A stretch of 64,000 bases of DNA from Opitutales bacterium (GTDB lineage Bacteria; Verrucomicrobiota; Verrucomicrobiia; Opitutales; Intestinicryptomonadaceae). The DNA lies in assembly GCA_015061945.1 (NCBI GenBank), contig SUVP01000002.1:62001-126000 (forward strand), given 5' to 3'. Shown piece after piece: positions 9,755-51,741 of the stretch. A program made the position numbers and the translations under genes. Within the stretch, counting starts at the first letter, position 1; the number at the start of each line of letters is the position of its first letter. The notes under the pieces were generated by a model. It saw only the letters and a program-made list of their open reading frames with translations. It ran no database searches and was not told where the DNA came from.

Positions 9755-10861
9755 TTAGTTAGATTTTTTAATCAAGATGTTTGCCAAAAGATCTTTCACA
9801 CGTTCGCGTGCTAAAGTTTCGCTCTTTTCGATTGGAGTTGTTAATTGATAATGACGCCAACATTTTTGGCTATCAGAAAGACGGAATTTTGTGAAGTATC
9901 CAGTCGAAAAATTTTCACAAATAAAGAACGAGTATGCTCCAAATTTTTGGTTGTTTGATTGCATTATCAACTCATTCACTTGGATTTTATGTTCGCCAAC
10001 ATTCAAATAAATTTGTCGAGACGTGATTATTGCTACCCCTGCACTTCTCATGCAAATTTCTATTGGGTGAATATCGGCAACATCGCCGACATCAATTGCA
10101 AGCAACGCAACGTTAGAATTATCGTTATAATAAATTTTGCGTTTTATATTTTTTGCGTGCTGAAAAAGTCGCTTATCGAGGTCGTTTTCGGGAATATCTG
10201 CACCAATCCATTTTCCCGCTTTTATCGTATTTGTATTTATTATGGCTGTGTCGCCAACGGGGATTTCTCTCGCTCTGATTTCTGCAAAAATAGCAGTAGC
10301 GAGTGCACACGAACAGAATATGACTGAAGTCGCATGAGGATATCTTCGCAAGTATAAAGTACAGAATGTCCACGCAACGAAAAACGCAATTCCCAACAAT
10401 ATTTTCGCAAAAAAGAATGCCGATATTGTGCCGATGCTCAAGTTGAAGCAATAGTTAAACCAAAACGAAAGATTTGGTATTGTTAGCAAAACAAAAAAGA
10501 TTGTAGGCACTTGTGCCAAAAGCACTTTATGCCCGAACATTGAGTCGGTCGACAACGCAATTATTGCGATTGCTAAAACGAGTCCAACCGCGTTAAAACT
10601 AAATCCTAACGCAATGTACGCAAGTATCGCAAGCCCGATAAATACAATTAGAATTTTTGAATTTGTTTTGCTTACATTCGCAATTTTTGCTTTACGTCTT
10701 ACATGCTCGCATGCACAAATTACAAATGGCAAACCTATCCAAATAATCGCATCGTATCTTTCGTACGGCGAGCCAAGCCAAGATGAAATAAGATATGGCA
10801 ATTTTATCAATAGTGGTATTATTGATAATGTGAAAAAAATTATTTTCAGACTATTTGCCAT
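9755..10861 (-). CDS. Exosortase-associated membrane protein with EpsI-like C-terminal domain
   Basis: A protein of about 368 residues. I start it at ATG 10861, which has an AAAGG site about 9 bases upstream; a TTG at 10882 is the alternative. The N-terminal half is about seven hydrophobic segments resembling an exosortase membrane core but with no Cys-Arg-His triad. The C-terminal half (about 205-368) is soluble and resembles EpsI (DUF3485): VGDTAIINTNTIKAGKWIGA, then DIHPIEICMRSAGVAI like the HxPxxCxxxxG motif of that domain. It overlaps the exosortase stop by 11 bases and ends the operon. EpsI domains are often fused to, or adjacent to, exosortases; their role is thought to be accessory to sorting or polysaccharide export. 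Confidence 0.6.
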   Translation of the reverse strand: MANSLKIIFFTLSIIPLLIKLPYLISSWLGSPYERYDAIIWIGLPFVICACEHVRRKAKIANVSKTNSKILIVFIGLAILAYIALGFSFNAVGLVLAIAIIALSTDSMFGHKVLLAQVPTIFFVLLTIPNLSFWFNYCFNLSIGTISAFFFAKILLGIAFFVAWTFCTLYLRRYPHATSVIFCSCALATAIFAEIRAREIPVGDTAIINTNTIKAGKWIGADIPENDLDKRLFQHAKNIKRKIYYNDNSNVALLAIDVGDVADIHPIEICMRSAGVAIITSRQIYLNVGEHKIQVNELIMQSNNQKFGAYSFFICENFSTGYFTKFRLSDSQKCWRHYQLTTPIEKSETLARERVKDLLANILIKKSN

Positions 10862-11675
10862 AATCAGACCTTTCGTCTTCAATTTTTCTCAAGAACAATC
10901 CGAACCCAATAAATAGAATCATTGTGAAAATAATTGCAAACAATCCTAACGCAAAGTGGGCATCACCCTCAAGGATTTTGTCGCCATACAATTTCATTCC
11001 GACGACTGACAACACCACACGAGTTGCGTTGCAAAAAATAAAAATCGGGATTATACATAAGAAATAAATTGTCCGTAAAAAATATTGTTTGAACATTACC
11101 ATTGCAGACAACCACGCTAACAAAAATAGAGTCCACAAATGCTCAACACCACTGCATGCGGTTGTTATTATAATTTGTTTGTTTTCCACATATAACGATG
11201 TTCCTTGCGATGTTGTATCAAACCCCAATAACATCAAAATTCCCTTTGCAATGATAGTTTCCAAGACTCGCATAGGATAACTAACCGTTATGTGAACATT
11301 AGAATAATTCGGTACGCCAAGAATCCAAATAGCAAGTGGCAAGACACAAATGAAGGTCGGTTTTATCCCGCAAAAAAATAGAACGCACGCAACCGAAACA
11401 AAGAATAATGCAAAATGCAACAGCTGAAAATATCCGGCAAACCCCCCAGCTATTAGCAATAAAAAAGCGAAGAATTTTTCAAGATTGCTTGCGTGTAAAT
11501 TCCCTACATTTTTTAGAGCAGTAAACGCTACGCATCCGCCCAACGCCCACAAAGAAAACACTGCTTGAATATCGCTCGATGACAAACAAAGATACCCAGA
11601 CCATACAGCTAAACTTGCGACAAATAATAATAAAATCGCAAAATTGCCTTTATTATAATCTATGGTTTTGAACAT
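10851..11675 (-). CDS. Exosortase/archaeosortase family transpeptidase
   Basis: A 274-residue polytopic membrane protein with about eight helices. The exosortase catalytic triad is clear: Cys174 in TTACSGVEHL, Arg219 in CNATRVV, and His240 in GDAHFALGL, with the expected spacing and membrane topology. The family cleaves C-terminal tripartite signals (motif, membrane helix, basic tail) on exported proteins, probably joining them to cell-surface material. It lies one base after the TPR gene and downstream of two small proteins with matching C-terminal tails, which are the obvious substrates. The subtype cannot be fixed by eye. Confidence 0.9.
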   Translation of the reverse strand: MFKTIDYNKGNFAILLLFVASLAVWSGYLCLSSSDIQAVFSLWALGGCVAFTALKNVGNLHASNLEKFFAFLLLIAGGFAGYFQLLHFALFFVSVACVLFFCGIKPTFICVLPLAIWILGVPNYSNVHITVSYPMRVLETIIAKGILMLLGFDTTSQGTSLYVENKQIIITTACSGVEHLWTLFLLAWLSAMVMFKQYFLRTIYFLCIIPIFIFCNATRVVLSVVGMKLYGDKILEGDAHFALGLFAIIFTMILFIGFGLFLRKIEDERSDYGK

Positions 11676-11676
11676 A

Positions 11677-13995
11677 TTATTTTTTCAACATCTTTTCCAA
11701 TCGAGAGATTTCTGCAGATATCTCTTTGTTGTCTGGATGTAATTTTGACGCTTTTTTTAAGACTGAAATACGTCTATCAATTTTGATGTCTCGTTGTTTT
11801 GAAAATTCCACTAAAACGTTTACGAGAACGATCTCGATTTCAGTTGATTTTTGGCGTTGAAGTGATCTTTCGAGAGTTGCAATTGCTTCCTCATAAAGAT
11901 TGCCGAATGCCAATATTTCGCCCAAATTTGTTATTGCCGACAACCCGGTTGGTGCCAAATTTACAGCTTTTCTTGCCGATGCCAACGCTTCGTCAAACAT
12001 TCCAGCTTTTTTGTAAGACCTCGATAATTCGAGAAAAATATTTGATTGCGAAGAATGCTCTTGAGACAGTTTTTGAAGTAATTGAATCGACTTTGTGCAA
12101 AAATCTTTTCCGCCATTTCGAATCAACGATGCCATACGAAAACGCAACACAGCAGAATCTTTCTTTTGTAAAAATTTTTCTGTTTCATCTAAAACATCTT
12201 TATATTTTTTTGCATCTGCGTAAGCCGTTATCAATTCCGAAAGTAAGACATCGGACGAATCGTCCATTTTATAGGCGTTTTCGAGCAATTTAATTTGCTC
12301 GCTCGTTTTGCCGTTTATTTTCGCATATTTTGATTTCAATAGAAGTGCGAGAATTTTATTATCTTTTTCTTTTGATGATTCTATTAAATTCAACGTTGCG
12401 AAAAAGTCGTCATAAAATTTGTTATCGAGCATAAAATTGCCAACTTCAGCACCGATTACGACTGATTTTTGCGATGCTTTCATCGCTTGCATATAAAATT
12501 TGCGAGCATTGTTTTTATCTTTTTTTGCAAGATACGCTCGTGCTGAAAACAGGATTGTCATAGCGTCGGCTTTATTGCTCTTAAGTTTTTTGTTCGCAAT
12601 AGCTATAACATCATCGTAATTACCCAACGCCATTGCCGACGCACATGCAATATTAAATGTCGATTCTGAATATCCTAATTTTTCTAAAACTATTTTCGAT
12701 GAATTATATGCTGAGTAAAAATCACGCTTATTGAATTTTCTGTGCATATTCAATAAGTTCGCAAAAGGATTATCTGGAGAGATTATAAGCAGAGAGTCGA
12801 GCAAAGAATCGTCATTTCTATTTTTATTTAAAATCTCGCAAAGAATTTTTACGACCTCAATTTTATCGGACTCTGTAATTTGATTAGCAAACTTTGCAAT
12901 GTTAGATGCAATCATTGATGCCGATGCGTACGCTCCAAGTTTTGATATACATTTAAGCTCTAAAATTCTGCCAGAAATACCTTGTGCAAAATATCCCGAC
13001 GCACTTAATTTTTCGCGAGATTGTTTCCAATCGCCTTTGAGAAAAGACTCGTGTGCAGAAATGTAATAGAACAATTCGAGTGACATTTTATCTTTTGCTT
13101 CAAACAAAGTTTTGAATTTTGCGAGTGCATCTAAATCTTTTGCAATTGAAGCAAGCTCGACACCCTCGACAATCGGTGCTACTAAATATCGCTTAAATTT
13201 TGCGAACTCGATATACTTCAAAATTGCTGTTTTTACATTGCCTTCCCATTCAGCTATCGATGCTTGCAAGGCGATTAAATCGCTAACAATGACAACATCG
13301 TCAGAATTTATTTTAGATAGAATGTCTTTTGCTGGTTGCACATCGCCATTGAATAGATTGATACTCGCAAGCCCTATCATTGAATCGAATCTTTCGGTTT
13401 CGTTTTTTGATTCTGCCAATGCCGATTTAAATTCAGCCTGTGCCGATGCAAAATTTCTCGACGATATATACGATACCCCAACAAGCATTTTCTTATACGC
13501 CGAACTTTTTACATACTTTTGCAAACCTGCAATATTTTGACGTTTTGCAGAACGTGCATAAGATTTCGCCACTGCATAAATGTACGAATCGGGCAAGAAA
13601 GATTTATCGGCGAGTGATTCAAATCTGAGTTGAAGGATTGAATCTGCCCCCGAGATAATCATCGCACGAAAGTAATTACGCTTTGCGTCAACATCGAGTG
13701 GATTGAGGTTTGATATCATCAACCAAAAATATGCCGAGTCTTTATAATTGACTTTTTCTTCAGCGAGTTTTGCAAGCACTCTATATGCTTCTTCGCACGA
13801 TGTATCGTTTGAAATTATCGAAAAATAAATGCTATACGCCTTATCTTTATTACCACGAGTTAATTCTTCGCGTGCGGTTATCAAGCGTTCAGAAGTTGTG
13901 TCAGATGCAAAAGAGATTCCTACAAGCAACGCAATCAGCAACACCAAGAATACCGACAATCCTCCGAGTACAAACTTCCGCAAATTTTTAGACAT
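11677..13995 (-). CDS. Membrane-anchored TPR protein of the exosortase locus
   Basis: A 772-residue protein with one N-terminal membrane anchor (residues about 8-30) and the rest helical repeats facing the periplasm. Tetratricopeptide-like units are visible throughout, for example ARAYLAKKDKNNARKFYMQA and ALASARKAVNLAPTGLSAIT. PEP-CTERM/exosortase loci commonly carry a large TPR protein (PrsT-like), and this is probably the counterpart, though it lacks a lipobox. It follows the substrate gene by 10 bases and precedes the exosortase by one, so it is co-transcribed. A scaffold role for substrate or polysaccharide handling is inferred. Confidence 0.7.
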   Translation of the reverse strand: MSKNLRKFVLGGLSVFLVLLIALLVGISFASDTTSERLITAREELTRGNKDKAYSIYFSIISNDTSCEEAYRVLAKLAEEKVNYKDSAYFWLMISNLNPLDVDAKRNYFRAMIISGADSILQLRFESLADKSFLPDSYIYAVAKSYARSAKRQNIAGLQKYVKSSAYKKMLVGVSYISSRNFASAQAEFKSALAESKNETERFDSMIGLASINLFNGDVQPAKDILSKINSDDVVIVSDLIALQASIAEWEGNVKTAILKYIEFAKFKRYLVAPIVEGVELASIAKDLDALAKFKTLFEAKDKMSLELFYYISAHESFLKGDWKQSREKLSASGYFAQGISGRILELKCISKLGAYASASMIASNIAKFANQITESDKIEVVKILCEILNKNRNDDSLLDSLLIISPDNPFANLLNMHRKFNKRDFYSAYNSSKIVLEKLGYSESTFNIACASAMALGNYDDVIAIANKKLKSNKADAMTILFSARAYLAKKDKNNARKFYMQAMKASQKSVVIGAEVGNFMLDNKFYDDFFATLNLIESSKEKDNKILALLLKSKYAKINGKTSEQIKLLENAYKMDDSSDVLLSELITAYADAKKYKDVLDETEKFLQKKDSAVLRFRMASLIRNGGKDFCTKSIQLLQKLSQEHSSQSNIFLELSRSYKKAGMFDEALASARKAVNLAPTGLSAITNLGEILAFGNLYEEAIATLERSLQRQKSTEIEIVLVNVLVEFSKQRDIKIDRRISVLKKASKLHPDNKEISAEISRLEKMLKK

Positions 13996-14005
13996 TATTC
14001 TTTAA

Positions 14006-14488
14006 CTATCGTGTATTGCGTCTTTTTTTTGATACAAAGAAATATCCGCCTGAAAAAGACAACAAGCCGAGCAACGCAGTAAACACTACTGGTGGCAAAG
14101 GTGAACCAGATGGCGAGACAGGATTTGTTCCAACCGTAAACGAAAATGGAATCGTAAAGCCATAGTCGTTGCTATTGATATTGTACACACCCGACTTCCC
14201 TGTTTCTTCTGCATAATAGTACAGAAGACCTCTTTTTGCGAATCTTATTTTATCGCCATCTTTAAATTCGAGAGCCTTATTTATATTATTTTTATCAATA
14301 ATATTGAATTTTTTGTCATCGTTTAAAAAGTACCCAAATTGATGCAAATAAAGCGATGAGTCTTCGGGCAAAACGAAAATCGTAGTATCGCCAGTGATAT
14401 TGAGAGTTCCATTTTCAAAAGTCCAACCTGCAAAAAGGTTTGTTGATGCAAATGCAAAAATACCGAATAATGTTAATAATTTTTTCAT
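14006..14488 (-). CDS. Small exosortase substrate-like protein, PSG-x-PLP C-terminus (copy 2)
   Basis: A 160-residue secreted protein with signal peptide MKKLLTLFGIFAFASTNLFA. Its C-terminus is a tripartite sorting signal: PSGSPLPP starting at Pro126, a hydrophobic helix VVFTALLGLLSFSGGYFFV, then KKRRNTR. The central domain is homologous to the upstream gene: DTTIFVLPEDS, FGYFLNDDKKF, NINKALEFKDGDKIRF align with their partners there. The domain family is not recognised. It overlaps the upstream paralogue by four bases and is followed by the TPR and exosortase genes. It is likely cleaved within the PSG-x-PLP tail and displayed on the surface. Confidence 0.75.
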   Translation of the reverse strand: MKKLLTLFGIFAFASTNLFAGWTFENGTLNITGDTTIFVLPEDSSLYLHQFGYFLNDDKKFNIIDKNNINKALEFKDGDKIRFAKRGLLYYYAEETGKSGVYNINSNDYGFTIPFSFTVGTNPVSPSGSPLPPVVFTALLGLLSFSGGYFFVSKKRRNTR

Positions 14489-14982
14489 TTATGTTTTCTC
14501 CTTAATTTAAAGTATATTGTACCCAAAGCCGATGCACCTATGAGTGCAGTAAATATCACGGCAGGCAAAGGTTGCCCCGATGGTTGATATGGTTTTGGCA
14601 CAACAGTAAATTTTATATCGCCATTACCATGTCCACCAATTTTATAAATATTATTGTGGTGATCGTCTTTATCAGCCTTGAACAAAGTAATTTTTATTTC
14701 AGCATTTGCGTTATGTTTTTTTACAAAGCTAACTTCATCGCCTTCTTTGAAATTAAGAGCTGTGTTGATATCTGATTCTGTGATTGCGTAGAAAGTATCA
14801 TCATCATTGAGATAATATCCGAACCCAGTTAAATCATAATCATCTCCGATTGGGGACACAAAGATAGAAGTGTCGCAATCGAAAACGAATGCGTGTTTAC
14901 CTTTGTCGAACACAAATGCAAACAAAGATGTTGCCGAAAACATCGCAACGCAAATTAGAATCTTGAAAAATGATGATTTCAT
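14485..14982 (-). CDS. Small exosortase substrate-like protein, PSG-x-PLP C-terminus (copy 1)
   Basis: A 165-residue paralogue of the next gene and the first gene of the exosortase operon. It has signal peptide MKSSFFKILICVAMFSATSLFA, a central domain with FGYYLNDDDTFYAIT and NTALNFKEGDEVSFVKK, and a C-terminal signal PSGQPLPA (from Pro134), helix VIFTALIGASALGTIYF, then KLRRKHK. A His/Asp-rich insertion (DKDDHHNNIYKIGGHGNGD) precedes the signal and may bind metal or be a linker. Identity between the two copies is strongest in the FGYxLNDD block and in the PSGxPLP-x-V-x-FTAL tail, suggesting duplication and a shared sorting enzyme. Confidence 0.75.
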   Translation of the reverse strand: MKSSFFKILICVAMFSATSLFAFVFDKGKHAFVFDCDTSIFVSPIGDDYDLTGFGYYLNDDDTFYAITESDINTALNFKEGDEVSFVKKHNANAEIKITLFKADKDDHHNNIYKIGGHGNGDIKFTVVPKPYQPSGQPLPAVIFTALIGASALGTIYFKLRRKHK

Positions 14983-15023: not shown

Positions 15024-17729
15024 ATGCAAGCTTTTTATATGTACATTTCCAGAATTTTAAAAATATTGTGCCTCTCGATATTAGGTCTGTTGGGCATAGA
15101 TTTATTGTGCGATACTCGCATTGTTGAAAAAATCATTTCATTGCCTTCTACAATTTCATCAGCAATAAAATTCAAATTAAACGATTTTAAACCTACTGAA
15201 AAAATTGACGTAGCTATCAACGGCAATATCAGAGTTGAGATTTTAGATGATAAAAATATATGTGTAGTTGGCACATACGCCGACTTTTTGCAATCGCGTT
15301 TCCAAGCCGAGTGTGGAAGTTTTCTTCGTGGGATTGATAGCCCACTCGCCAATCTCAAGGATTGGTCGAGAAATGTATTTTATAATATTATGGGTGCAGA
15401 AATAATCTTGAAGTATCGCCCCATAATCGCAAAAGCATATCAGGACTACAATTCTTTTGAATTTAACAACGGTTTAAAAATCAAAAATGGTGGATACTGG
15501 ATTAACCCAATCGGACAAGCAGATTTCCCAAGCTCGACAAACGGCAAACCAAAATTAACATACAATGCCGAAGTTGCACATTACGCATTTCTCGAACTCG
15601 AAACTCCACTTAAAGCAGGTGTTAGATATACGATAAAAACGCCACTTGGCGAAGTCGCTACATTTTCGTATCCCCAAGCCGACGGAAATAAAATCATAAA
15701 ATTAAATCAGGTCGGATATGCACCAAATGCCGAAAAAAAATTTGCATATATCGGCACATGGCGTGGCACGTTGGGAGCGTTGCCTTTGCAACATCTGCAA
15801 GATAAAAACTTTTCAATCTTGAGTTTGCCCGATAGGAAAGTTGTATTTACAGGCAAATTAGAAAAACGTCAAGCCGACCCGAAATACAAAACAGGTTCAG
15901 CTTTTACTGGCGAAAATACATATCAAGCCGATTTCTCAAAATTGAAAAAAGAAGGGAAATTTATTCTACACATAGATTCTCTCGGCGAAAGTATGCCTTT
16001 TAAAATTTCAAACGATTCCGTTGGCGAAGCATTTTTTGTTCACGCAAAAGGTCTCTATCACAAGCGTTGTGGAATTGCGAAAGAATCCCCCTACACAAAT
16101 TGGCATTCGGGAGTATGTCATAAAATAATTTATCAATCAAATTTTCCTCCAAACAATAAGCACTATAAGCCCGACTCAAAAAGAAAAGATTGCGGATTTT
16201 TTGATAAAAACGGCAAGCAAATTAACGTTTCGCAATTTGAACTTATATCGCTAAACGCTAACACAAATACCCCGTTAAACGCTTGTGGAGGTTGGCACGA
16301 TGCTGCCGATTACGACCGCCGTCCGTATCACTACGATGTCGTTTGCGATATCCTAACATCTTACATCTACAAACCCGAAAATTTTTCCGACGGACAATTA
16401 AATATTCCAGAATCGAAAAATGGTATTGCTGATATTATCGATGAAGCAATTTGGGGAATGAAACTTTGGAAGAATTTGCAAAATCAAAATGGATCCGTTG
16501 GTGGTTGGATTGAAGCAGATAGTCATCCCAAAGAATATAATCCACATATCGACAAACAGCCATACTTCCTTTCTGCGTCAACCCGTGAAAGCACAATGCA
16601 ATACGCATCACACGCATCTATGCTTTCGCTTGCTCTCAAAAATGCTGGCAAAATTAAGGAATCAAAAGAGTGGCTCGATTCCGCTAAAAAAGCGTACCAC
16701 TGGGCAAAGTTAAGCATAAACAGATTTTCTGCCGAATACGTTTATCCCGAAAATCCGAATGCAAAAAATTCTCAACTTGTAAAAATAATTTATAAGGAAT
16801 CGGTTGATATTCCGTCGGAGTTTATTTTTAAGGGTGCGTTTAATCTCTACTTACTCACCGATGATAAAATTTATCTGAACGATTGTGTGAGAATCGCAAA
16901 AGATATGACGAAAAAATTTATAGAAACAACTTGGCGAATAAATCCATTTTTCTTCAGCGAGTTTCTCAAATATGGTTCTGGAATAAAAGAGCTTTCCGAA
17001 CTCCATTCTGAATACAAAAAACGTGCGTTGATGTATGCTGATATGAGACTCGGTTGGCTTGAAAATGCTTATCCGTACAGGATTGCGTGGTACCCACATA
17101 ATCATCCGTACGTTTCGCATATGGCGTGGGGAAATTTTCATCCGTTCAGAAATGCAAAGTATTTTATCAATGCATACGAGCTTACAAAAGATAAAAAATA
17201 TTACACAGCAGTTTCGCTTTGCAACGACTTCCACAACGGTGCAAATCCATTTGGACAAACAATGACTTCTGGACTCGGCAAAATTTATCCAGTGAAATTT
17301 CTCGACCTACCCTCCTACTCTGACAATGTTTCGGAGTATGTCCTCGGGATTACCCCTTACAGAAATACATTTGGAATAAATCGAGAGTCGTTAAAGCTCG
17401 GCTATGCCTTGATATATCCGCATCGCAAAGATAGAAACTTTACACCAACACCAATAATGTTGCTTCCAAAATCGACAATCGGTGATTACAAAAATATCGA
17501 GAATTTTTCGAAAAAAATCGGGAATCTTTTGCCTATTTGGCGAAGATATACAAATGTAGAGGCATATTCTGTGTCCGCAAGCGAGTATACCGTCTCAGAG
17601 ACAATAGCTCCTGCAATGTCAGTGTGTGGATGGCTTTTAGAGCCGAATTTTAGCCCATCCGACGAACTAAAGAATCGCAACCCCGCAAAAGATTATCGCA
17701 AATTAGACGGCTATGCACCCTTGCCATAA
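15024..17729 (+). CDS. Membrane-anchored GH9 (cellulase-family) glycoside hydrolase
   Basis: A 901-residue protein with an uncleaved-looking N-terminal membrane segment (about 9-29), a large region of about 200 residues with no recognised domain, a CelD-type N-terminal Ig-like domain (about 222-330, starting IIKLNQVGYAPNAEKKF) and a GH9 (alpha/alpha)6 barrel. Catalytic candidates are Asp426 and Asp429 in CGGWHDAADY and Glu859 in SETIAPAM; GANPFGQTMTSGLG is the usual pre-terminal GH9 motif. GH9 enzymes are mostly endo-beta-1,4-glucanases, but the specificity here is unknown. It could trim the organism's own exopolysaccharide. It starts 41 bases from the divergent exosortase operon (Met6 at 15039 is an alternative start) and overlaps the 3' end of the EPS operon by 19 bases. 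Confidence 0.85.
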   Translation: MQAFYMYISRILKILCLSILGLLGIDLLCDTRIVEKIISLPSTISSAIKFKLNDFKPTEKIDVAINGNIRVEILDDKNICVVGTYADFLQSRFQAECGSFLRGIDSPLANLKDWSRNVFYNIMGAEIILKYRPIIAKAYQDYNSFEFNNGLKIKNGGYWINPIGQADFPSSTNGKPKLTYNAEVAHYAFLELETPLKAGVRYTIKTPLGEVATFSYPQADGNKIIKLNQVGYAPNAEKKFAYIGTWRGTLGALPLQHLQDKNFSILSLPDRKVVFTGKLEKRQADPKYKTGSAFTGENTYQADFSKLKKEGKFILHIDSLGESMPFKISNDSVGEAFFVHAKGLYHKRCGIAKESPYTNWHSGVCHKIIYQSNFPPNNKHYKPDSKRKDCGFFDKNGKQINVSQFELISLNANTNTPLNACGGWHDAADYDRRPYHYDVVCDILTSYIYKPENFSDGQLNIPESKNGIADIIDEAIWGMKLWKNLQNQNGSVGGWIEADSHPKEYNPHIDKQPYFLSASTRESTMQYASHASMLSLALKNAGKIKESKEWLDSAKKAYHWAKLSINRFSAEYVYPENPNAKNSQLVKIIYKESVDIPSEFIFKGAFNLYLLTDDKIYLNDCVRIAKDMTKKFIETTWRINPFFFSEFLKYGSGIKELSELHSEYKKRALMYADMRLGWLENAYPYRIAWYPHNHPYVSHMAWGNFHPFRNAKYFINAYELTKDKKYYTAVSLCNDFHNGANPFGQTMTSGLGKIYPVKFLDLPSYSDNVSEYVLGITPYRNTFGINRESLKLGYALIYPHRKDRNFTPTPIMLLPKSTIGDYKNIENFSKKIGNLLPIWRRYTNVEAYSVSASEYTVSETIAPAMSVCGWLLEPNFSPSDELKNRNPAKDYRKLDGYAPLP

Positions 17730-19555
17730 TCTGAATTTTTGCCAAACAATCGGTATTTGATAACACGCAAAACAAATAGCGGATTGCCGATAACATATCG
17801 GACAAAAAGTCGACAAGGCTCCTGCAATAAACGTCCAAACCATTCAAGCCCGAGTTTGCGAAAAATCGGATTGCGTTTCAAGTCTCCCGAGTAAACGTCG
17901 CACAAACCGCCGACAGCCAAAACTACGCCACACTGCAATTTATCTATATTTTCAAGTACCCACTTCTCTTGAATAATTGCACCAAACCCGACAAAGAGAA
18001 AATCAACGTTTGCATCATTTATCTCTTTTACGACAACATTGTCGTCATCAAAATATCCATTGTGTGTTCCTGCAATTTTTAAATTTGGATACAACTTTTT
18101 CAAGTTTTCAGAAGCCCTAAAGGCGACACCTTCTTTACCGCCCAAGAAATACATTGAAAGATTTTTCTTGCTTGCAACTTCGCATAAGTACGGGAGCAAA
18201 TCTGTCCCATTTAAATTGTCTCGATAGTTGTATCCTAAAATTTTGCACGCCAAACTTACACCACTTCCGTCGGGCAAAACGTAATCAAATTGACGCAAAC
18301 GTTCGCGTTGAGAAAAATTTTCATAAGCACAATTCAAATAATGAGTGTTTATAAATGCGACACTTGTCTTCGATTTTTTCTCTGCTTTTTCTGCGAGAAT
18401 ATTTGCAATGTCATTCATTCTACCATTGTAAAATGGTACGCCAAAAATTTTTAAAGAACTACATTTTGCATATTGTTTGCGACACAACGCAGACAATTTT
18501 TCTGAATGCTTTTCCCACGAAAATAATTTGACTCTTTCGCGACCCTTTTCAATCAAACGTGCAACTTGAATTTCATCTGAAAGCAACGTTGTTAACGCCG
18601 AACAAATTTCATCAACCGAGTGCGGATTAAACTGAATCGAGGCATCGCCACCAACCTCAGCGAGTGCTGAAACGTTTGAACACGCACACGGCAAATCGCA
18701 AAGCATAGCTTCGGCAAGTCCGAGACCAAAACCCTCCGCAAACGACGGAAAAATAAAGGCTCGTGCATTTTTGTACAAAGCCGAAAGCTCCGCATTAGAA
18801 ACAAATCCCGAAAAAATAATCTTGTCTGAATCGGGACTTTCTTTTGCCATTTTTCTAATCACATCAGCCCCATTCCAATCTGCTCCGACAAACACAAGCT
18901 TATGATTTTTTCTTATTTGCTCTGGTAATTTTTCAAATGCAGAAATTAAATTTGCGTGATTTTTTGCTGGATGTTCGATTCTCGAAACATACAAAACATA
19001 CTTATCTAACCCAAGTTTTTTTAATATGTTGTTATCCGGCTCGCAACGTGCAGAAACGCCATTATAATTCAGTTCAATCTTATTTTTATCAAGCTTCCAA
19101 TACTTTGCTATATCTGATTTTGTCGAGTTGCTGATTGCTACAATTTCATCAAATGTACGACCCAATATAGGTTGAATTTTGAATAGCTGAAACATTCTCA
19201 ATGCACAGTATTTATCGGAAACTCGATACTGCGATAAATCGTGAATGACACCAACTTTGGCAGTTTTGCCAAACGGCACAAAGCGTCGATTTCCAGCAAG
19301 GACAAGCACGCAATCATATTTGCGCGCAATAAACGGAAGTACAAAAATACTCCACAAATAATTTGCAAATGACTTTGAAAAAATCTTAGGAACACGAACC
19401 TGCTTGAATTCTTGGAAGTCGGCAACAGCGTCGTATTCCACAACGAGTGTTATATCGTCTTCAAAATTTCTCAGTTCCTTAAGAACGGATCTCATATACG
19501 ACGACAATCCTGACTTACCTGAATCATAGCCAAGACAACTAACTAAAAGCTTCAT
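17711..19555 (-). CDS. Fused glycosyltransferase: GT4 plus WecG/TagA/CpsF (GT26)
   Basis: The start is set at ATG 19555, giving an ATGA overlap with the upstream gene and the GT4-like N-terminus MKLLVSCLGYDSGKSG; an upstream in-frame start at 19657 would lie inside the previous gene. Length is 614 residues. The N-terminal part (1 to about 365) is a GT4 retaining transferase with VLYVSRIEHPAKN and the nucleotide-sugar motif EGFGLGLAEA (about 274-283). The C-terminal part (about 369-614) is a GT26 transferase: INTHYLNCAYE, DYVLPDGSGV, LNGTDLLPYL, FVGFGAIIQEKW. GT26 enzymes (WecG, TagA) add ManNAc-type sugars to lipid-linked acceptors. It is the last gene of the EPS operon and likely catalyses two additions to the repeat unit. 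Confidence 0.88.
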   Translation of the reverse strand: MKLLVSCLGYDSGKSGLSSYMRSVLKELRNFEDDITLVVEYDAVADFQEFKQVRVPKIFSKSFANYLWSIFVLPFIARKYDCVLVLAGNRRFVPFGKTAKVGVIHDLSQYRVSDKYCALRMFQLFKIQPILGRTFDEIVAISNSTKSDIAKYWKLDKNKIELNYNGVSARCEPDNNILKKLGLDKYVLYVSRIEHPAKNHANLISAFEKLPEQIRKNHKLVFVGADWNGADVIRKMAKESPDSDKIIFSGFVSNAELSALYKNARAFIFPSFAEGFGLGLAEAMLCDLPCACSNVSALAEVGGDASIQFNPHSVDEICSALTTLLSDEIQVARLIEKGRERVKLFSWEKHSEKLSALCRKQYAKCSSLKIFGVPFYNGRMNDIANILAEKAEKKSKTSVAFINTHYLNCAYENFSQRERLRQFDYVLPDGSGVSLACKILGYNYRDNLNGTDLLPYLCEVASKKNLSMYFLGGKEGVAFRASENLKKLYPNLKIAGTHNGYFDDDNVVVKEINDANVDFLFVGFGAIIQEKWVLENIDKLQCGVVLAVGGLCDVYSGDLKRNPIFRKLGLEWFGRLLQEPCRLFVRYVIGNPLFVLRVIKYRLFGKNSDYGKGA

Positions 19556-20697
19556 ATCAATTCCAAAAATGATTTTAAAAATTTCTCTTTTGAAAAGTTT
19601 TCTGCGACAAACGAATAGCCGTTTTTGCCCAATCTTTTGCGTAAAGATGAATCGCAAGCAAGTTTATCTAATGCCGATGCAAAGGCTAAAGTATCACGTC
19701 GTTTAACAATAATGCCGTTCTCTGCATTCTTCAGCCAATCCGATACACCACCAACATCAAAGCCTACAACACATTTTGAATTTGCCATTGCTTCAATCCC
19801 GACAAGTCCGAATGGCTCTTGCCAAAGCGACGGAAAAACCACGACATCACATGATTGATAATAAACCACTGGATTATCAACAAAGCCTACAAATTCAATC
19901 TTCTCATTGAGTTTCAAGTGCTTTGCAATGTCTTTAAAATAAGGGGTTCGCGAGCCATTTCCCAAAATAGTTAGGAAGAAATCTTCTTTCATTTTTGCGA
20001 CAGATTCCAACAACAAGTGCAAGCCTTTGCTAATAACGTGTTGCCCTGCAAAAAGAATCTTCAATGGTTTTGTTGAATCTTTTTTGCATTGCGAAAAACT
20101 TTCAACAAATGCTGGCAAGAGATGAATTCTTTTTTTATCCACGCCATTTTTCACAAGTTCATCGCACATAAAATTTGAAATTACTACAAAGTTTTTAAAA
20201 CGCATAGCAACAGAATTTAACTTTGGCATTTCAACAAAACTTCGCTTTACCAATTCAGAAAATCCATTTGCAAAGTGGCGTGGAGGCACAGCCAACGAAC
20301 AAAGTCCGCAAGCAATTCTACCATACTTACGCTCGCAATTTATTCGCTTGTAAGGGTAATATTTGTAGCCTTTGGGGCAAACGTATGTATGGTCATGCAC
20401 AAAAAGTGTTGGCGAAAAATTATCAAGTGCATACTCGAGGAAATCGGCATCTTCGGTGCGATGCATTGTCGCAAAATCATATTTTATGTCTTTAAGATGT
20501 GTTGCGTTTTTCCAATCGACGCAATTTTCAAATACCGATTCAAAAATATCGAACTTCAAAGTTTTCTTGCGATAAATCATATCGCAGACAAAACCATTTT
20601 CTTTCAAAAATTTTGCGACCGAGTAAATATATTTTTCTGTTCCACCGATAAACCCAGCAAAGTCAGAAATAAACAATATGCGTTTTTTTTCGATCAC
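19552..20697 (-). CDS. Glycosyltransferase, GT4 family
   Basis: I start this gene at GTG 20697, which has a strong AAGGAGG site 7 bases upstream and a GTGA overlap with the previous gene's stop; the longer ORF start at 20766 lies within that gene. Length is about 381 residues. It is a GT-B fold enzyme with an N-terminal SDFAGFIGGTEKYIYSVAKF glycine-rich acceptor loop and a C-terminal donor domain containing KILFAGQHVISKG and EPFGLVGIEAMA. A Cys-rich insertion around residues 120-150 (CERKYGRIACGLC) is seen in some cyanobacterial and gut EPS glycosyltransferases and may bind metal. It adds one sugar to the EPS repeat unit at the cytoplasmic face; donor sugar unknown. Confidence 0.87.
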   Translation of the reverse strand: MIEKKRILFISDFAGFIGGTEKYIYSVAKFLKENGFVCDMIYRKKTLKFDIFESVFENCVDWKNATHLKDIKYDFATMHRTEDADFLEYALDNFSPTLFVHDHTYVCPKGYKYYPYKRINCERKYGRIACGLCSLAVPPRHFANGFSELVKRSFVEMPKLNSVAMRFKNFVVISNFMCDELVKNGVDKKRIHLLPAFVESFSQCKKDSTKPLKILFAGQHVISKGLHLLLESVAKMKEDFFLTILGNGSRTPYFKDIAKHLKLNEKIEFVGFVDNPVVYYQSCDVVVFPSLWQEPFGLVGIEAMANSKCVVGFDVGGVSDWLKNAENGIIVKRRDTLAFASALDKLACDSSLRKRLGKNGYSFVAENFSKEKFLKSFLELI

Positions 20698-21911
20698 TTT
20701 GAAACCTCCTTGTAAAACGCCAAAGTTTGTTTTGCGACAGATTCCCACGAGTATTTTTCGGCACATATCGAAAACGCATTTTTTGAAATTTCATTACGAT
20801 TTTTTTGCGAATCAAAATATGCATCTGTCATTTGTGAAATATTATTTGGTTCAAATAAAAAGCCAGATTTAGCGTCGTCAACAAGATGCCCTAACCCACC
20901 GATATTTGATGCAATCACAGGTAAACCCGACGCCCACGCTTCGAGAACGACAATCCCGAAAGGTTCGTGTATACTTGGCAAAGCAAACACATTTGCAGAT
21001 TTATATGCCGATAAAAGCAAATCGCAATCAGGGGGCAATCCTCCACACAAAGTCAAATGTTCGATGAGTTTCATCTCTTCAGCCAAGCTTCTTATTTGGT
21101 TAAAATAATCATTATTTGTGATAAAACCGACCAATGCCAAATGCACGTTTTCGCCTTTAGAAATAAGGTTTTGCAAAAGATGCAATAATGCGACTTGATT
21201 CTTCTGTGGGTCTATTCTCGACACGCACAAAATCAATTTTCTATTTTGTGGAATTGAAAATTCTTTGCGAAAATTAGAGTTCGATTCTTTTGAAAATTTT
21301 TCAACATCAACTCCATTTGGAATATGAGCAACTTTCTTGTGTGGATATGCCAACTGCATCTTTTCAAATTCATTTTTACCGATACAGATTATACCATCGC
21401 AATCGGCGACAACGTCTCTGGGCATCCCATAAAATTTTTCGATTATTTTCCCATAGCCGATTCTATTTTTAAGTGGACTCAACATTAAATCGGTTTCAGA
21501 TTTTGGAACATCCAAATATCCTCCGTGAAAAGACAACACGCACGGAGCCCCAATTTTCCTTGATGCAACAAGTGCAGTTTTTGCAATTCTACCCAAATTA
21601 TGAGAGTGTATAACATCAAAACAGCCTTTGCAAAGATGCTTGTAAAGCCCCAATGAGAAAGGGTTTCCGCCTTTCTTGTCGAGCGATAATTTCCTTTTTG
21701 AATCCAAGAAAAGATGTGGATAAAAATAATCAAAACGAGAAATATCGACGTCGTCCTTGCGTTCAAACTGGCAATCGCAAAGTGCCTTTGTTGCGAGAAT
21801 TTCGGCAGACACATTTTGTTTTGCGAACTTTTTAGTTAAGTTCCACACTGCCGATTCTGTACCGCCCCACTCTTCAAAAACAAAGCGTCTGATGATATTT
21901 GCAACTTTCAT
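20694..21911 (-). CDS. Glycosyltransferase, GT4 family
   Basis: A 405-residue GT-B fold retaining glycosyltransferase. It has the glycine loop FEEWGGTESAVWN near the N-terminus, VIHSHNLGR in the acceptor domain, KLILCVSRIDPQKNQ at the start of the donor domain, and EPFGIVVLEAWASGLPVI as the nucleotide-sugar motif. It overlaps the preceding GT2 gene by four bases (ATGA) and the following GT4 gene by four (GTGA), so all three are translationally coupled. It builds the lipid-linked EPS repeat unit in the cytoplasm. Donor and linkage cannot be read from sequence. Confidence 0.88.
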   Translation of the reverse strand: MKVANIIRRFVFEEWGGTESAVWNLTKKFAKQNVSAEILATKALCDCQFERKDDVDISRFDYFYPHLFLDSKRKLSLDKKGGNPFSLGLYKHLCKGCFDVIHSHNLGRIAKTALVASRKIGAPCVLSFHGGYLDVPKSETDLMLSPLKNRIGYGKIIEKFYGMPRDVVADCDGIICIGKNEFEKMQLAYPHKKVAHIPNGVDVEKFSKESNSNFRKEFSIPQNRKLILCVSRIDPQKNQVALLHLLQNLISKGENVHLALVGFITNNDYFNQIRSLAEEMKLIEHLTLCGGLPPDCDLLLSAYKSANVFALPSIHEPFGIVVLEAWASGLPVIASNIGGLGHLVDDAKSGFLFEPNNISQMTDAYFDSQKNRNEISKNAFSICAEKYSWESVAKQTLAFYKEVSK

Positions 21912-22732
21912 TTGACGCCTTTTCTACCCAAGTAATACGCTCTTTTCTGAAGATAGCGAACATATACGCAAGATGGTATTTCAATGAATTTTCCAGTCTT
22001 GAACGCAAATTTTACATCTCGCAAAACATCTACTACAATTCGACGCAACATATCTATGCGAGTAAATCCATTTCCCAAAATTTTCCTATCGGCACTTCCC
22101 TCGCCTTTAAATCTTCTTATCAAAGATTCTTTGTTGTAGTTGTGCGAATGCTCGACTTGTGCCGTTGGAACATATACTACTTTGTAATTATTTTCTCGGG
22201 CTGTTTTGACAAACATCACATCTTCTGAAAAATTCAAGGTGTCATCAAAATTTATAGAATTAAATACTTTTGCCGACACTGCTGAACTCGCCATAGAAAA
22301 GAAAATATCCGACACGCTTTTGTCGAGTGGGAATGCGTTTGCATAATCGCACTTCACCCACAATTTTGCGTCTTTGCGTGGTAGTTGACGTGCGTAAGTT
22401 ATATCGGCATTCCCTTGTAAAATAGGCGATACAAGGTTTTCCAGCCACTGTGAATTTTGCGGGATAGCATCAAGATTATTGAATACATAGATGTCGGCTT
22501 GCGTGTGCGAAACTGCCATATTTAAAATTTTACCAGGGATATATGTTCCCTCAGGGATGTCGATTATTTCGATATTCCCAGCGTTTTCATAAACTTGACG
22601 TGTACCGTCTGTCGAAGAATTGTCGAAAGCAAAAATTTTGAAATCTGAGAAAGTCTGTTCAAGCAAAGCAGAAAGTGTTTGCTTTGCGTACGCAATGTCG
22701 TTTCGACTTCTTACTATTACGGCAATTTTCAT
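21908..22732 (-). CDS. Glycosyltransferase, GT2 family
   Basis: A 274-residue GT-A fold inverting glycosyltransferase. It starts with VIVRSRNDIAYAKQTLSAL, continues with FDNSSTDGTR and has NNLDAI in place of a classical DxD motif. SEDVMFVKTARENNYKVVYV is the acceptor/catalytic-base block of rhamnosyl- and galactosyl-transferase-like GT2 enzymes. The C-terminal tail has a weak hydrophobic or amphipathic stretch and many basic residues, suggesting peripheral membrane contact. It lies 5 bases after the flippase gene and overlaps the next GT4 gene. Confidence 0.85.
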   Translation of the reverse strand: MKIAVIVRSRNDIAYAKQTLSALLEQTFSDFKIFAFDNSSTDGTRQVYENAGNIEIIDIPEGTYIPGKILNMAVSHTQADIYVFNNLDAIPQNSQWLENLVSPILQGNADITYARQLPRKDAKLWVKCDYANAFPLDKSVSDIFFSMASSAVSAKVFNSINFDDTLNFSEDVMFVKTARENNYKVVYVPTAQVEHSHNYNKESLIRRFKGEGSADRKILGNGFTRIDMLRRIVVDVLRDVKFAFKTGKFIEIPSCVYVRYLQKRAYYLGRKGVK

Positions 22733-22737
22733 TTTTA

Positions 22738-24267
22738 TTATTTCCCCAATATGCGTGATGACAGAATATCTGCTATATATTTGCGTTCATCACGCGAAAG
22801 CATAATTATCCAACCAGCTCCCAAGTAAACTAAGCCTGAAAGGAAGTACGCAATAATCAATGCGAATATTGACCACGATGTTTCGCCAAAAGATTTTTCA
22901 ATACCAAAGCAAAATACACCTGCGATAAGTGCGACAAAAAATGGTTTTCCATATATCGCAAAAAGGTCAGAAAAACCGATGTTTAATTTTTTAAATGCAA
23001 CTGGAAAAATCACCACTACTGAAATCAACACGTTTGGAATCAACGATGCCCACGCAATTCCGATTGTTCCAAATTTTTGGCAGAACCATATCCCCAATGC
23101 GATTGTCGCAACCGCTTGAATTGTCGAAGACATCGCAATGAACTTGTGCTTGCTCGACACCTGTAAATATCTATAAGGAACGTTGCGAACTGCACAATAT
23201 ACAAATTGTGAAATTAAAAATATTCTGCAAATCGCAGTTATTTCAAGCGATGTAAAGCCAAACAAAACTTTCACAGTTTGTGGCGTTAAAACGTAAAATA
23301 ATATCGTTGCCCCAAAAGACACAAACGTACTAAAACGCATTCCGTTTACAAGGATTGTTTTTAGCCCTGCTAAATCGTTTTTCTTTGCGAGGTTTGACGC
23401 AACTGGAATAACGTTATCTTGAAATTGCGATGATAACGATTGCGACATTTCAGGCAATCTTGTCCCAATTTGATATGCACTAACCGACGGCAAGCCAAGT
23501 ATTGAGCTGAGGATAAATCTGTCGGTCTTTGCGGTTATCAACATAGCGAGAGAATTTAGATATACAAAGAAACTGAAGTTCCATATTTCTTTGAACACGC
23601 TAATATCGATTCTCGGCAAGATGCGAAAAGTTGGAATTTTTTTCTTAACAATAAATGCTAAAAATGCGGTAAAGCCAACATTCATTACAGTCGAGAATAT
23701 TACAAATGCGATAAATTTTGAGTGTGCGGCAATCAACGCATAAATCCCGAAAATTTCGACGATTCGCAAAAGAATCATCACAATATTTTTAAGATATATC
23801 AGTCGTAGACCAGTGAGAATATCGACAAAAGTCGAGAGCGGGAAAAGAATTGCCATTCCAACACCGAACACGAGGAGTGCGTATTGGCAGTCGGACATCA
23901 TTGTCGGATTCGATATATTTGTCCACGCACCCATATTGAATATCCCAAGTCCTACAACCCCCAAAATTACAAGGGATACGCCAAAATAAGCAAACATCAC
24001 AATCGATATTATCTTATTATACTTTTCGGGATTTGTTTCAAAAAGATGTTCTGCTGTGAACTTTTGAACTGTTGCACCAAAGCCAAAATTGAACACTGCA
24101 ACGTATGTAAAAAATGCCCATAGGATACTCCAAAAGCCGTAGTAGTCCTCACCTAATGCACGATAAAGAAAACGCGTAATCAATATAACGTAGATTATGC
24201 GGATTGCGATTAGTGCGTAATTTGACAGCGTATTTATCGCAACAATTTTATTTAGCGAGCGATCCAT
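22738..24267 (-). CDS. Polysaccharide flippase, Wzx/RfbX-like (MATE/MOP superfamily)
   Basis: A 509-residue integral membrane protein with about 14 predicted helices and the N-terminal pattern of polysaccharide translocases (NTLSNYALIAIRIIYVILITRFLYRALGEDYYGFWS, of which the YR..G...YG part is characteristic). Conserved positives in the first half (KTDRFILSSILG) fit Wzx. It would move the lipid-linked repeat unit across the inner membrane for polymerisation by the Wzy-like protein encoded nearby. Its start overlaps the 3' end of the phosphatase-fold gene by 20 bases. Confidence 0.88.
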   Translation of the reverse strand: MDRSLNKIVAINTLSNYALIAIRIIYVILITRFLYRALGEDYYGFWSILWAFFTYVAVFNFGFGATVQKFTAEHLFETNPEKYNKIISIVMFAYFGVSLVILGVVGLGIFNMGAWTNISNPTMMSDCQYALLVFGVGMAILFPLSTFVDILTGLRLIYLKNIVMILLRIVEIFGIYALIAAHSKFIAFVIFSTVMNVGFTAFLAFIVKKKIPTFRILPRIDISVFKEIWNFSFFVYLNSLAMLITAKTDRFILSSILGLPSVSAYQIGTRLPEMSQSLSSQFQDNVIPVASNLAKKNDLAGLKTILVNGMRFSTFVSFGATILFYVLTPQTVKVLFGFTSLEITAICRIFLISQFVYCAVRNVPYRYLQVSSKHKFIAMSSTIQAVATIALGIWFCQKFGTIGIAWASLIPNVLISVVVIFPVAFKKLNIGFSDLFAIYGKPFFVALIAGVFCFGIEKSFGETSWSIFALIIAYFLSGLVYLGAGWIIMLSRDERKYIADILSSRILGK

Positions 24268-25429
24268 TTCTCAAATTTTCAATATCGTTTTTCATCAACG
24301 CAAAGAAATCTTTTACGTTCTTTGGTTCAATTTGCGGAGATTTTGTCGAAATCAAACATGCGTAAGAATCGGGAGCGTCGGGGGAATATCCGTGCATTCC
24401 GTTGAGTGCTTTTGCACCTAAATCGCATGGTGAAATCTGTACACCTTCGTCCATAAGAAAAATATCTTCACCATATTTTGCGTTTGGAAAATCTATACCA
24501 TACTTGCGTTTTTCATCTTCAGAAATAAATCTACCCTTGCACGATTGCAAAGCAGTGCGAATTTTATTTTTCACTTCTTCAGATTTTGTCGGATACCAAA
24601 TGCGTGCCATTGTGGAATCGAGGAACGACACATAGTCTTTGCCAAATTTCAGTTTGAGCGACTTTATGACTTTTGCCAAATCGCAAACTTCCTTCGTTGG
24701 AGTCATCCCGTGGTCAGATATAATTGTAAAGTCGAAGTCGGTGGAATTATCTTTTAAGAAAGCGATAAGGTCTCGGATTTTCTCAGCGTATGTTTCGATT
24801 TTATTTTTTATTGCGACATCATCAAAAACGTTATCGTGCATAAACGAGTCGAACTCACCACTATATATGAATGCAAATTCTGCTCCATTTTTAATTGCGT
24901 TTTTTGCGTCTACAATATTTTGCGATTCACTTTTACGCCAATCAGAAATATGAAAATTTAGTCCCGATTCTTCTAAAACATCGAATAAATTTTTCACTGG
25001 TGAGAGTCCGTTTTTTGCGAATATATCATTTTTTTCGCAATAATCGAAGTATGGTAATTGTTCAAAAGGCACGCCATAAAGGCTGAAATATCCAGTATAC
25101 CCAAAGTATTTTGCGACAAGCTTCGAGATTACTCTTCTGATACGACCTCTATTAAACAAGCATTTTGGATGAAGCCCCGCCCCGAACAAAAATTTCATAT
25201 ACTTGAATTTTTTGAAAGGCGAGTTTTTGGGGTCGTAATAAAAGAACGAGAAATGCCCGTGTTTATCGGGCGTTTCGCCTGATAAAATTGTTGGCATTGC
25301 CGTCGATGAATAGCCAAACTGCATTTCTATTTTTCGTCTATGCAAAAGTTCATTTTCTAAAAAACCGTATTTATTCACAATCTCCCAGCCGAGAGCATCT
25401 ATAAACATATAAACTGAAATTTTTTTCAT
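24248..25429 (-). CDS. Alkaline-phosphatase-superfamily protein (nucleotide pyrophosphatase/phosphodiesterase-like)
   Basis: A 393-residue protein with the metal-ligand set of type I phosphodiesterases: Asp11 (FIDALGW), a nucleophile block GYSSTAMPTILSGETPDKHG with Thr43 the likely nucleophile, SGEFDSFMHD, IISDHGM and GMHGYSPD. There is no convincing signal peptide (MKKISVYMFIDALG is part of the fold), so it probably acts in the cytoplasm. It lies between the polymerase/ligase and the flippase in the EPS operon. It could remove or transfer a phospho-group on a glycan intermediate or a nucleotide sugar; this is inference. The family has phosphatase, phosphodiesterase and phosphoglycerol/phosphoethanolamine transferase members. 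Confidence 0.75.
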   Translation of the reverse strand: MKKISVYMFIDALGWEIVNKYGFLENELLHRRKIEMQFGYSSTAMPTILSGETPDKHGHFSFFYYDPKNSPFKKFKYMKFLFGAGLHPKCLFNRGRIRRVISKLVAKYFGYTGYFSLYGVPFEQLPYFDYCEKNDIFAKNGLSPVKNLFDVLEESGLNFHISDWRKSESQNIVDAKNAIKNGAEFAFIYSGEFDSFMHDNVFDDVAIKNKIETYAEKIRDLIAFLKDNSTDFDFTIISDHGMTPTKEVCDLAKVIKSLKLKFGKDYVSFLDSTMARIWYPTKSEEVKNKIRTALQSCKGRFISEDEKRKYGIDFPNAKYGEDIFLMDEGVQISPCDLGAKALNGMHGYSPDAPDSYACLISTKSPQIEPKNVKDFFALMKNDIENLRNGSLAK

Positions 25430-26766
25430 TGTGCGATTCCTTTCATCTGTCGAGCCGTATTTATTCTGACATTAGTCATCGTTGCCACGATTGCAAAAAT
25501 TATCATAAGTTCGTATGAGTTTGTTTGCTGTTTTAAAATCCATTCAAAGCAGGATTGACCATATACCGCAGTGAGTGCACCTAACACGCCTACAGCCATA
25601 TAGAAACCTCCAGCATTTTTATACGCCTTTATATTTTTGATATTTTGCCAATAGTAGTACAAGAACCACATCAGAAGCGACGCAAATGTAATCCATCCAC
25701 ATTCTGCCGCCACAAGCAGATATATAGTTTCAACAATACCACTTTTGAAATCTTCGTCTGGGCGTTTTATCCCTGTATTTTCCCAGTATCTGTACGGTGG
25801 ATTTATCTTCAAGCCCCAGTTATTCAAGCCTACGCCAAAGAATTTATCTTCTGCCATATTTAACGCAGCTTTTGCGAATGCGACACGCCCTTCTGCCGAT
25901 GTCTCTGGTGCATTGACAAATCGGTCGACAACCATAGGTGCCGCACGCATTGTAGCGACAACCGCCAAAACGATTAAGAGCAAAAGTATTTTCTTCTTTC
26001 GTGGATTCATTCCATTTCGCAAAGATAGTATAATCACCATTCCCAGCGATAAAGGCAGGAAGATAATAGCTCCTCGAGAAAGCGACAATATTACTGCACA
26101 CGACGCACACGCAAATGCCATCGCAAAAAGATAGTATGTGCGTTTGTCTAAATCTTTATTTAAAATTACCGACAAGAAAATTGGAGCAATCATATTTGAG
26201 AACATCGCAGTAGAGTTGCGGTGGATAAAGACACCCGATGGCTGATATACCCCAAAAAACAAGCGTTGCACAAGCATATGGAAAAACGTGAATATTATAA
26301 ACCCACCGAGTGCGTACAAAATAATATCAAAATTTTTATTTCTGATTATGCAATTATAGACTGTGATAAAAAAGATGTAGTGCAATATCATCTGCATAAC
26401 AACATACCCAGAATAAATGCGGTTATCGGCATTTATAATTGATATGCACGATAGCACGAAATACAAAATATAAAAGCGAGCTCCTCGGGGAAAGAATACG
26501 ACATTTTTTCTTCCGTCAGATGCAATCATCGCACCCAAGAGCGAGAATGCAATCATATCTGTTGCCAACACTTCGTATCCACGGACAGTCCCTTTGTAAA
26601 ACTCATCGGTAAAAAAATTGATACCTGTCGAGTACACAAACGGAATGAACAATATCATCAAAAAATACGCAATTTTTTTGTAGCGATTGTTGTTTTTCAA
26701 AAGACCAATCGCTACTGGAACACCTCCGAATAGGAGTGCAAAAAACACTATGTGTTTTAATCCCAT
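25426..26766 (-). CDS. O-antigen ligase/polymerase-family protein (Wzy-like)
   Basis: A 446-residue membrane protein with about 11 helices and a large periplasmic loop (about 280-345) starting after RAAPMVVDRFVNAPETS. The loop contains GRVAFAKAALNMAEDKFFGVGLNNW, the Wzy_C/O-antigen ligase block (the G-x-G-x-x-x-W part). SLSRGAIIFLPLSL before it is also typical. It is placed between Wza and the flippase, so EPS polymerase is the best reading; a ligase function cannot be excluded. It overlaps the following gene by four bases. Confidence 0.82.
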   Translation of the reverse strand: MGLKHIVFFALLFGGVPVAIGLLKNNNRYKKIAYFLMILFIPFVYSTGINFFTDEFYKGTVRGYEVLATDMIAFSLLGAMIASDGRKNVVFFPRGARFYILYFVLSCISIINADNRIYSGYVVMQMILHYIFFITVYNCIIRNKNFDIILYALGGFIIFTFFHMLVQRLFFGVYQPSGVFIHRNSTAMFSNMIAPIFLSVILNKDLDKRTYYLFAMAFACASCAVILSLSRGAIIFLPLSLGMVIILSLRNGMNPRKKKILLLLIVLAVVATMRAAPMVVDRFVNAPETSAEGRVAFAKAALNMAEDKFFGVGLNNWGLKINPPYRYWENTGIKRPDEDFKSGIVETIYLLVAAECGWITFASLLMWFLYYYWQNIKNIKAYKNAGGFYMAVGVLGALTAVYGQSCFEWILKQQTNSYELMIIFAIVATMTNVRINTARQMKGIAQ

Positions 26767-26772
26767 TTGCGT

Positions 26773-27834: not shown

Positions 27835-27843
27835 AATTTTAAA

Positions 27844-32444: not shown

Positions 32445-32445
32445 A

Positions 32446-51726: not shown

Positions 51727-51741
51727 ATAGATTTTTTGAGA

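Follow-up and report, generated by a model that had tools for sequence, protein, structure and literature searches.

The window analyzed here, a stretch of 64,000 nucleotides from the genome of an Opitutales bacterium (contig SUVP01000002.1), codes on its minus strand for a five-gene cassette that, in our assessment, is very probably a self-contained exosortase sorting system with its own C-terminal signal and few substrates, the VPEP proteins of the same genome being served by another exosortase. The evidence comprises a recurrent gene order, a C-terminal tail that is almost confined to genomes with the cassette, the grouping of the exosortases in a clade apart, the conservation of their catalytic residues and a small number of substrates per genome.

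Organization of the cassette

All five ORFs named in a first-pass annotation of the window are present on the minus strand, from 14982 to 9755. The arrangement described there, two tandem secreted paralogs ending in PSG(Q/S)PLP directly upstream of genes for a TPR protein, an exosortase and an EpsI-like protein, is borne out by the ORF calls, the paralogy of the small proteins and the PF09721 match of the exosortase. Substrate 1 (14485..14982) is a secreted protein of 165 aa, identified by its paralogy with substrate 2, by the tail profile and by an ortholog adjoining the cassette in a genome of the same genus (G009). Its predicted sorting tail (14488..14583) has the form PSGQPLP-AVIFTALIGASALGTIYF-KLRRKHK. 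Substrate 2 (14006..14488), likewise identified by paralogy and the tail profile, has 160 aa and a PSGSPLP tail (14009..14113) of the form PSGSPLP-PVVFTALLGLLSFSGGYFFV-SKKRRNTR. The two share 35% identity over 161 aa (E 6e-27), and both combine a signal-peptide-like start with ends (PSGQPLPAVIFTAL... and PSGSPLPPVVFTAL..., respectively) that continue into a hydrophobic helix and basic residues. Substrate 1 matches the tail profile at E 3e-21, being itself a member of that profile.

Next in order is a TPR-repeat protein of 772 aa with one N-terminal hydrophobic segment (11677..13995), recognized by the Pfam TPR models and found as the conserved middle gene at the same position in relatives. It is followed by the exosortase of 274 aa with the catalytic residues Cys174/Arg219/His240 (10851..11675; PF09721), and by the EpsI-like protein (9755..10861), in which weak profile matches point to a C-terminal half of the EpsI/DUF3485 type, with an IHPxxxC motif, joined to a hydrophobic N-terminal half. 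The two substrate ORFs overlap by 4 bases, and gaps of 10 bases and 1 base separate substrate 2 from the TPR gene and the TPR gene from the exosortase gene, respectively. The EpsI-like ORF opens at the TTG at 10882; its first ATG places the start at about 10861 and gives an overlap of 11 bases with the exosortase gene. Thus, the earlier description of all overlaps and gaps as 10 bases or less holds for the gaps and the 4-base overlap, and fails for the last overlap as counted from the ATG. The arrangement is not due to chance, because dozens of other genomes have their genes in this order and proteins with this tail.

Family assignment of the enzyme and its partners

The window exosortase scores 93.1 bits against PF09721 (cut-off 25.7) and 38.3 bits against the general signature TIGR04178 (cut-off 23), and possesses the conserved Cys, Arg and His of the exosortase/archaeosortase family; the residues equivalent to C174, R219 and H240 are invariant in 42/42 cassette exosortases. 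It exceeds the cut-off of no named subfamily (Xrt) in NCBIfam release 20.0, and neither do the cassette exosortases of relatives that were scanned. In a tree of 70 exosortases, which has long branches and drew warnings from the tool, the cassette enzymes fall on one side of a single branch with a support of 97/99. The EpsI-like protein matches TIGR02914 (20.5 bits, cut-off 42.8, E 3e-4) and DUF3485 (22.4 bits, cut-off 26.1, E 1e-4) weakly. In all loci that yielded the two genes, the EpsI-like gene directly adjoins the exosortase gene and has the same strand. The TPR protein reaches 64.9 bits against the PrsT model TIGR02917, far under the cut-off of 312.2. Sequence searches recovered no solved relative of the exosortase or the EpsI-like protein; a single structure-database match to the exosortase at E 0.14 was taken as chance.

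Recurrence in related genomes

Within its genus the window exosortase has one good match, that of G009 (37%), and its order adds the matches of G103 and G065; all three genomes carry the TPR, exosortase and EpsI-like genes in the order of the window. G009 codes for two tailed substrates (SGQPLP) at the same place as in the window, and in G103 the product of one convergent neighboring gene ends in SPTGQPLP. In G065 no substrate adjoins the cassette; a tail profile built from five other tails recovered two tailed proteins on other contigs (E 8e-12 and 6e-10). As the tails of G065 itself were left out of that profile, we consider this genome to be the cleanest single test of the association. A search of the window genome with the tail profile gives only its own two tails, and 13 of 14 cassette-less genomes give none, the lone match being a weak one in G066 (E 0.026).

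Within the genus of the window, its own genome and G009 have both cassette and tail, while the other genomes have neither; the same contrast is seen between G065 and its congeners G050 and G080, which are without both. Another member of the window's genus, G010, shows neither an exosortase nor a PEP-CTERM match; therefore, members of this genus differ even in whether they have any exosortase system.

The EpsI-like profile matches 4/373 genomes of the order and 51/388 of the phylum. A scan of named-genome contigs with the window exosortase as a single sequence gave no match, whereas the EpsI alignment gave 55 loci, nearly all titled as Lentisphaeria or Verrucomicrobia, some only as "uncultured bacterium"; the cassette-bearing named genomes include Victivallis vadensis DSM 14823 and Oligosphaera ethanolica DSM 24202. 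Overall, the cassette is found in many Lentisphaeria and, within the order of the window, in a few further genomes, its usual gene order being substrate(s), TPR, exosortase and EpsI-like protein. A sub-group of loci from rumen Lentisphaeria (L125-L128, L130) has the cassette exosortase and EpsI-like protein without a recognizable TPR match or adjacent tail, and in these genomes a weak tail is found elsewhere.

Co-occurrence of the tail with the cassette

The co-occurrence of exosortase and motif across genomes, a check proposed in the first-pass annotation, was assessed in a phylum sample of 388 genomes with the EpsI-like profile as marker, the marker and tail searches being taken as one sample since their sizes and handles agree. 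The marker is present in 51 genomes and the tail in 47: 43 have both, eight the marker only, four the tail only and 333 neither. The one-sided Fisher p of 3e-44 treats related genomes as independent and ignores common descent. Moreover, part of the co-occurrence is expected, because the tail profile (A8) was partly built from cassette-adjacent proteins. More independent evidence comes from tails on contigs other than that of the cassette, for example in G065, G502, G627, G632 and G680.

The discordant genomes are only partly explained. Among those with the tail only, PF09721 finds nothing in G615 and G654, which may reflect incomplete assemblies, the tail match of G575 is weak (6e-4), and G598 codes for one exosortase, left unplaced here. 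Among those with the marker only, G618 and G651 have variant tails (SGQPAP/QGQPAP) adjoining the cassette, and G560 has its cassette on a contig of 3.4 kb. The EpsI and exosortase matches of G480 and G643 appear to fall in one long frame, and these are probably fused classical proteins. The remaining marker-only genomes are G443, G544 and G649.

The predicted sorting tail and the substrate bodies

Across relatives the tail has the consensus (S/T)GQPLPG followed by a helix and a K/R-rich end. Conservation centers on (S/T)GQPLP, after which most tails have G and those of the window's lineage A or P. Of the PSG prefix and FTAL context earlier singled out as distinct, the SG belongs to the core, whereas the leading P and the FTAL context characterize the lineage of the window. 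Genomes with matches have one to three such tails, and the substrates are not always adjacent to the cassette. The window tails match no sorting-tail model of NCBIfam release 20.0 or Pfam above its cut-off, and no named CTERM family, which upholds the proposed distinction from the classical PEP-CTERM; the tails of relatives give weak, sub-cut-off or marginal matches, the sole exception above a cut-off being one tail that slightly exceeds that of the loose LPXTG anchor model.

The substrate domain was described as unrecognized, and it remains so: outside the tail neither Pfam nor NCBIfam gives a match to the window pair, and hhalign comparisons of the window bodies with those of other groups gave no significant relation (probability 8% or less), while the tail is common to all. 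Two proteins adjoining the cassette in relatives (L122:14697-15398 and L123:1120-1833) have the variant tails QGQPAP and SGQPAP, respectively, and the latter weakly matches DUF4114 (24.7 bits, cut-off 27). AlphaFold models of two substrates, both of which look all-beta with a C-terminal helix, are of low confidence (pLDDT 59 and 70), and a PDB comparison with a limit of E 0.001 gave no match for either, for which reason we claim no fold for them. Possibly, the body of the window substrates is a diverged beta domain of the DUF4114 type.

The polysaccharide neighborhood

In the window the neighbors of the cassette are a gene of the GH9 type and an extended polysaccharide operon (17711-35506) with glycosyltransferase, Wzy-like, export and sugar-transferase genes. 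The GH9-type protein (15024-17729; PF00759 with CelD_N) is encoded divergently to the cassette at a distance of 41 bases, and G009 has the same divergent neighbor (L049:11448-14123). Within the operon we observe a GT4 glycosyltransferase joined to a WecG domain (17711-19657), a pyruvyl transferase joined to a C-terminal half that by eye resembles a chain-length regulator (27844-31119) and a protein (32446-33483) that shares the motif GGGYGRGEGG with L051:3899-4996, both nucleotidyltransferase-like by eye and lying in the polysaccharide neighborhoods of their genomes. Further along, 48460-54501 codes for two large tandem proteins, paralog-like by eye with a YWNEFE motif in both, possibly glycoside hydrolases. 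In the window this neighborhood fits a matrix or capsule function, and the suggested tie between the displayed protein and the operon is only a lead. The neighborhood is not general, because no exopolysaccharide genes are evident by eye next to the cassettes of V. vadensis and O. ethanolica; for this reason we do not take the cassette to belong, as a rule, to an exopolysaccharide operon.

Proposed mechanism

By analogy with exosortase systems, for which Sec export, tail retention and cutting at the motif provide the precedent (PMC1569441; PMC12188702), we propose that signal peptides direct both small proteins into the Sec pathway, after which the C-terminal helix would keep them in the inner membrane and the basic tail would face the cytoplasm. 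The enzyme (Cys174/Arg219/His240) would recognize (S/T)GQPLP on the outer side of the helix and cut there, and the mature protein would be passed to an acceptor or released. As accessory factors of the exosortase we propose the TPR protein together with the membrane-fused EpsI-like protein. The cassette exosortase is predicted to serve only the few proteins with the (S/T)GQPLP tail, the many VPEP proteins of the genome using another exosortase. A fuller picture can be offered tentatively, and we would sooner expect it to be wrong than right in some part: this unnamed exosortase/SGQPLP-CTERM system might be the sole exosortase system of much of Lentisphaeria, might have spread to a few members of the window's order, working there alongside PEP-CTERM with no substrates in common, and might link one or two small proteins of the surface covalently to an acceptor.

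Alternative explanations

The window genome codes for three exosortases, one of them a separate EpsI-linked general exosortase (C1:240423), and for about 54 PEP-CTERM proteins over the cut-off, as against only two PSGxPLP tails; 20/20 of the inspected PEP-CTERM tails read VPEP(S/A). This equipment would accommodate the view that the cassette tails are diverged ordinary PEP-CTERM processed by the general exosortase, with the neighboring exosortase having another job. We hold this to be highly improbable in light of nine cassette-bearing Lentisphaeria (G380, G446, G377, G502, G515, G438, G397, G581 and G513), in which the cassette exosortase is the only PF09721 match, leaving no second enzyme of this family available, and which have SGQPLP tails in 9/9 and zero PEP-CTERM matches (E 0.01). 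Conversely, G001 and G050 code for exosortases and PEP-CTERM proteins and have neither cassette nor SGQPLP tail. One enzyme for each signal is the simplest reading. Nor does the abundance of PEP-CTERM proteins in the window genome indicate that these are served by the cassette exosortase, because a separate exosortase is present and relatives with PEP-CTERM that are without the cassette are also without the PSGxPLP tail. Together with the co-occurrence, the separate exosortase branch and the few substrates, this sustains the dedicated, self-contained sorting system envisaged in the first-pass annotation. Regarding the third exosortase-family protein of the window genome (G000:C2:83117-83884; L003, L054:7028-7897), it has ECNG instead of the usual CSG, its best weak named matches are XrtR/XrtP, and no EpsI-like gene was noticed adjoining it.

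The shared tail could also reflect the common descent of one protein family encoded beside the exosortase, the tail being a membrane anchor and no sorting signal. Many substrate genes do share one position, just ahead of the TPR gene, and a F-G-Y-Y ... D-K-I-G-F-W (D-x-I) pattern is visible in alignments across several substrate groups, which could then be one very diverged family. Yet the bodies have diverged beyond sequence recognition between groups while the tail is near-invariant, tailed proteins unlinked to the cassette still track it, one group has a DUF4114-like body with the variant SGQPAP tail, and a plain anchor would need neither a motif nor an association with an exosortase; we accordingly consider this explanation improbable. 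It is harder to choose between attachment and release. That the exosortase cuts the tail and merely frees the proteins, without covalent attachment to a sugar or lipid, is in our view a serious contender only somewhat short of an even chance, as the sequence points to no acceptor; the exopolysaccharide operon beside the window cassette would better fit an attached matrix protein, although such genes are absent there in V. vadensis and O. ethanolica.

Significance

Exosortase targets are usually many and diverse, because of which it is hard to learn the effect of one enzyme on one substrate. The cassette is a compact set of enzyme, accessory proteins and one to three substrates, and in several genomes its exosortase is the only one found. 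As V. vadensis and O. ethanolica are cultured, exosortase chemistry could be addressed there for one enzyme acting on one substrate. The tail and the exosortase subfamily occur together across gut and marine relatives, and the motif can be named for annotating surface proteins of gut Lentisphaeria. In literature searches covering papers outside subscription, no description of an SGQPLP tail/exosortase pair was found; the string "SGQPLP" appeared only in an unrelated Mycobacterium paper, and titles and counts gave no apparent link between exosortases and Victivallis.

Comparison with known systems

One point of comparison is PEP-CTERM/exosortase A (XrtA) with EpsI and PrsT (Haft et al. 2006, PMC1569441). 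The cassette resembles it in the tripartite tail (motif, helix, basic residues), the signal peptide, the pairing of an exosortase with EpsI-like and TPR partners and, in the window, the exopolysaccharide neighborhood. It differs in its motif, (S/T)GQPLP rather than PEP, in having few substrates versus dozens, in the scores against the XrtA (53.6 bits, cut-off 208) and PrsT (64.9 vs 312) models and in the joining of the EpsI-like half to a hydrophobic N-terminal half. The window tails have no match to the PEP-CTERM model TIGR02595 at E up to 1 and are absent from the PEP-CTERM matches of their own genome. With VPLPA-CTERM/XrtD the cassette shares the PLP core, as the slight resemblance of PLPA to VPLPA had suggested, and XrtD is the best-scoring named model for the window exosortase; however, its 64.9 bits stand against a cut-off of 400, and the tails do not match the VPLPA model at E up to 1. 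XrtV is the best-scoring named model for the cassette enzymes of G103, G065 and G009 (61-78 bits), which are nevertheless far under its cut-off of 313. Against XrtC of the VPDSG-CTERM system the window exosortase scores 14.9 bits (cut-off 300), and there is no tail match.

Some likeness to PID-CTERM (NCBIfam NF046080 and NF046081, with XrtX) is seen in 3/19 Lentisphaeria tails, which are weakly alike in the helix and basic part; these reach up to 18.5 bits against a cut-off of 26, the window tails do not match, and the cassette exosortases scanned do not match XrtX at the thresholds used. Against the LPXTG/sortase model the window tail scores 13.0 bits (cut-off 15.9), and the one relative that attains 16.8 does so via its helix and basic part, the LPXTG motif being absent. 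In coding for an enzyme together with one or two targets, the cassette parallels the rhombosortase/GlyGly-CTERM and sortase cassettes, although the enzyme families are unrelated; PMC3237569 uses the term dedicated system in this sense of an enzyme encoded with its targets. Taken together, these sequence comparisons lead us to read the cassette as a probable exosortase system with its own signal, that is, a new pair within the known exosortase/C-terminal-signal type.
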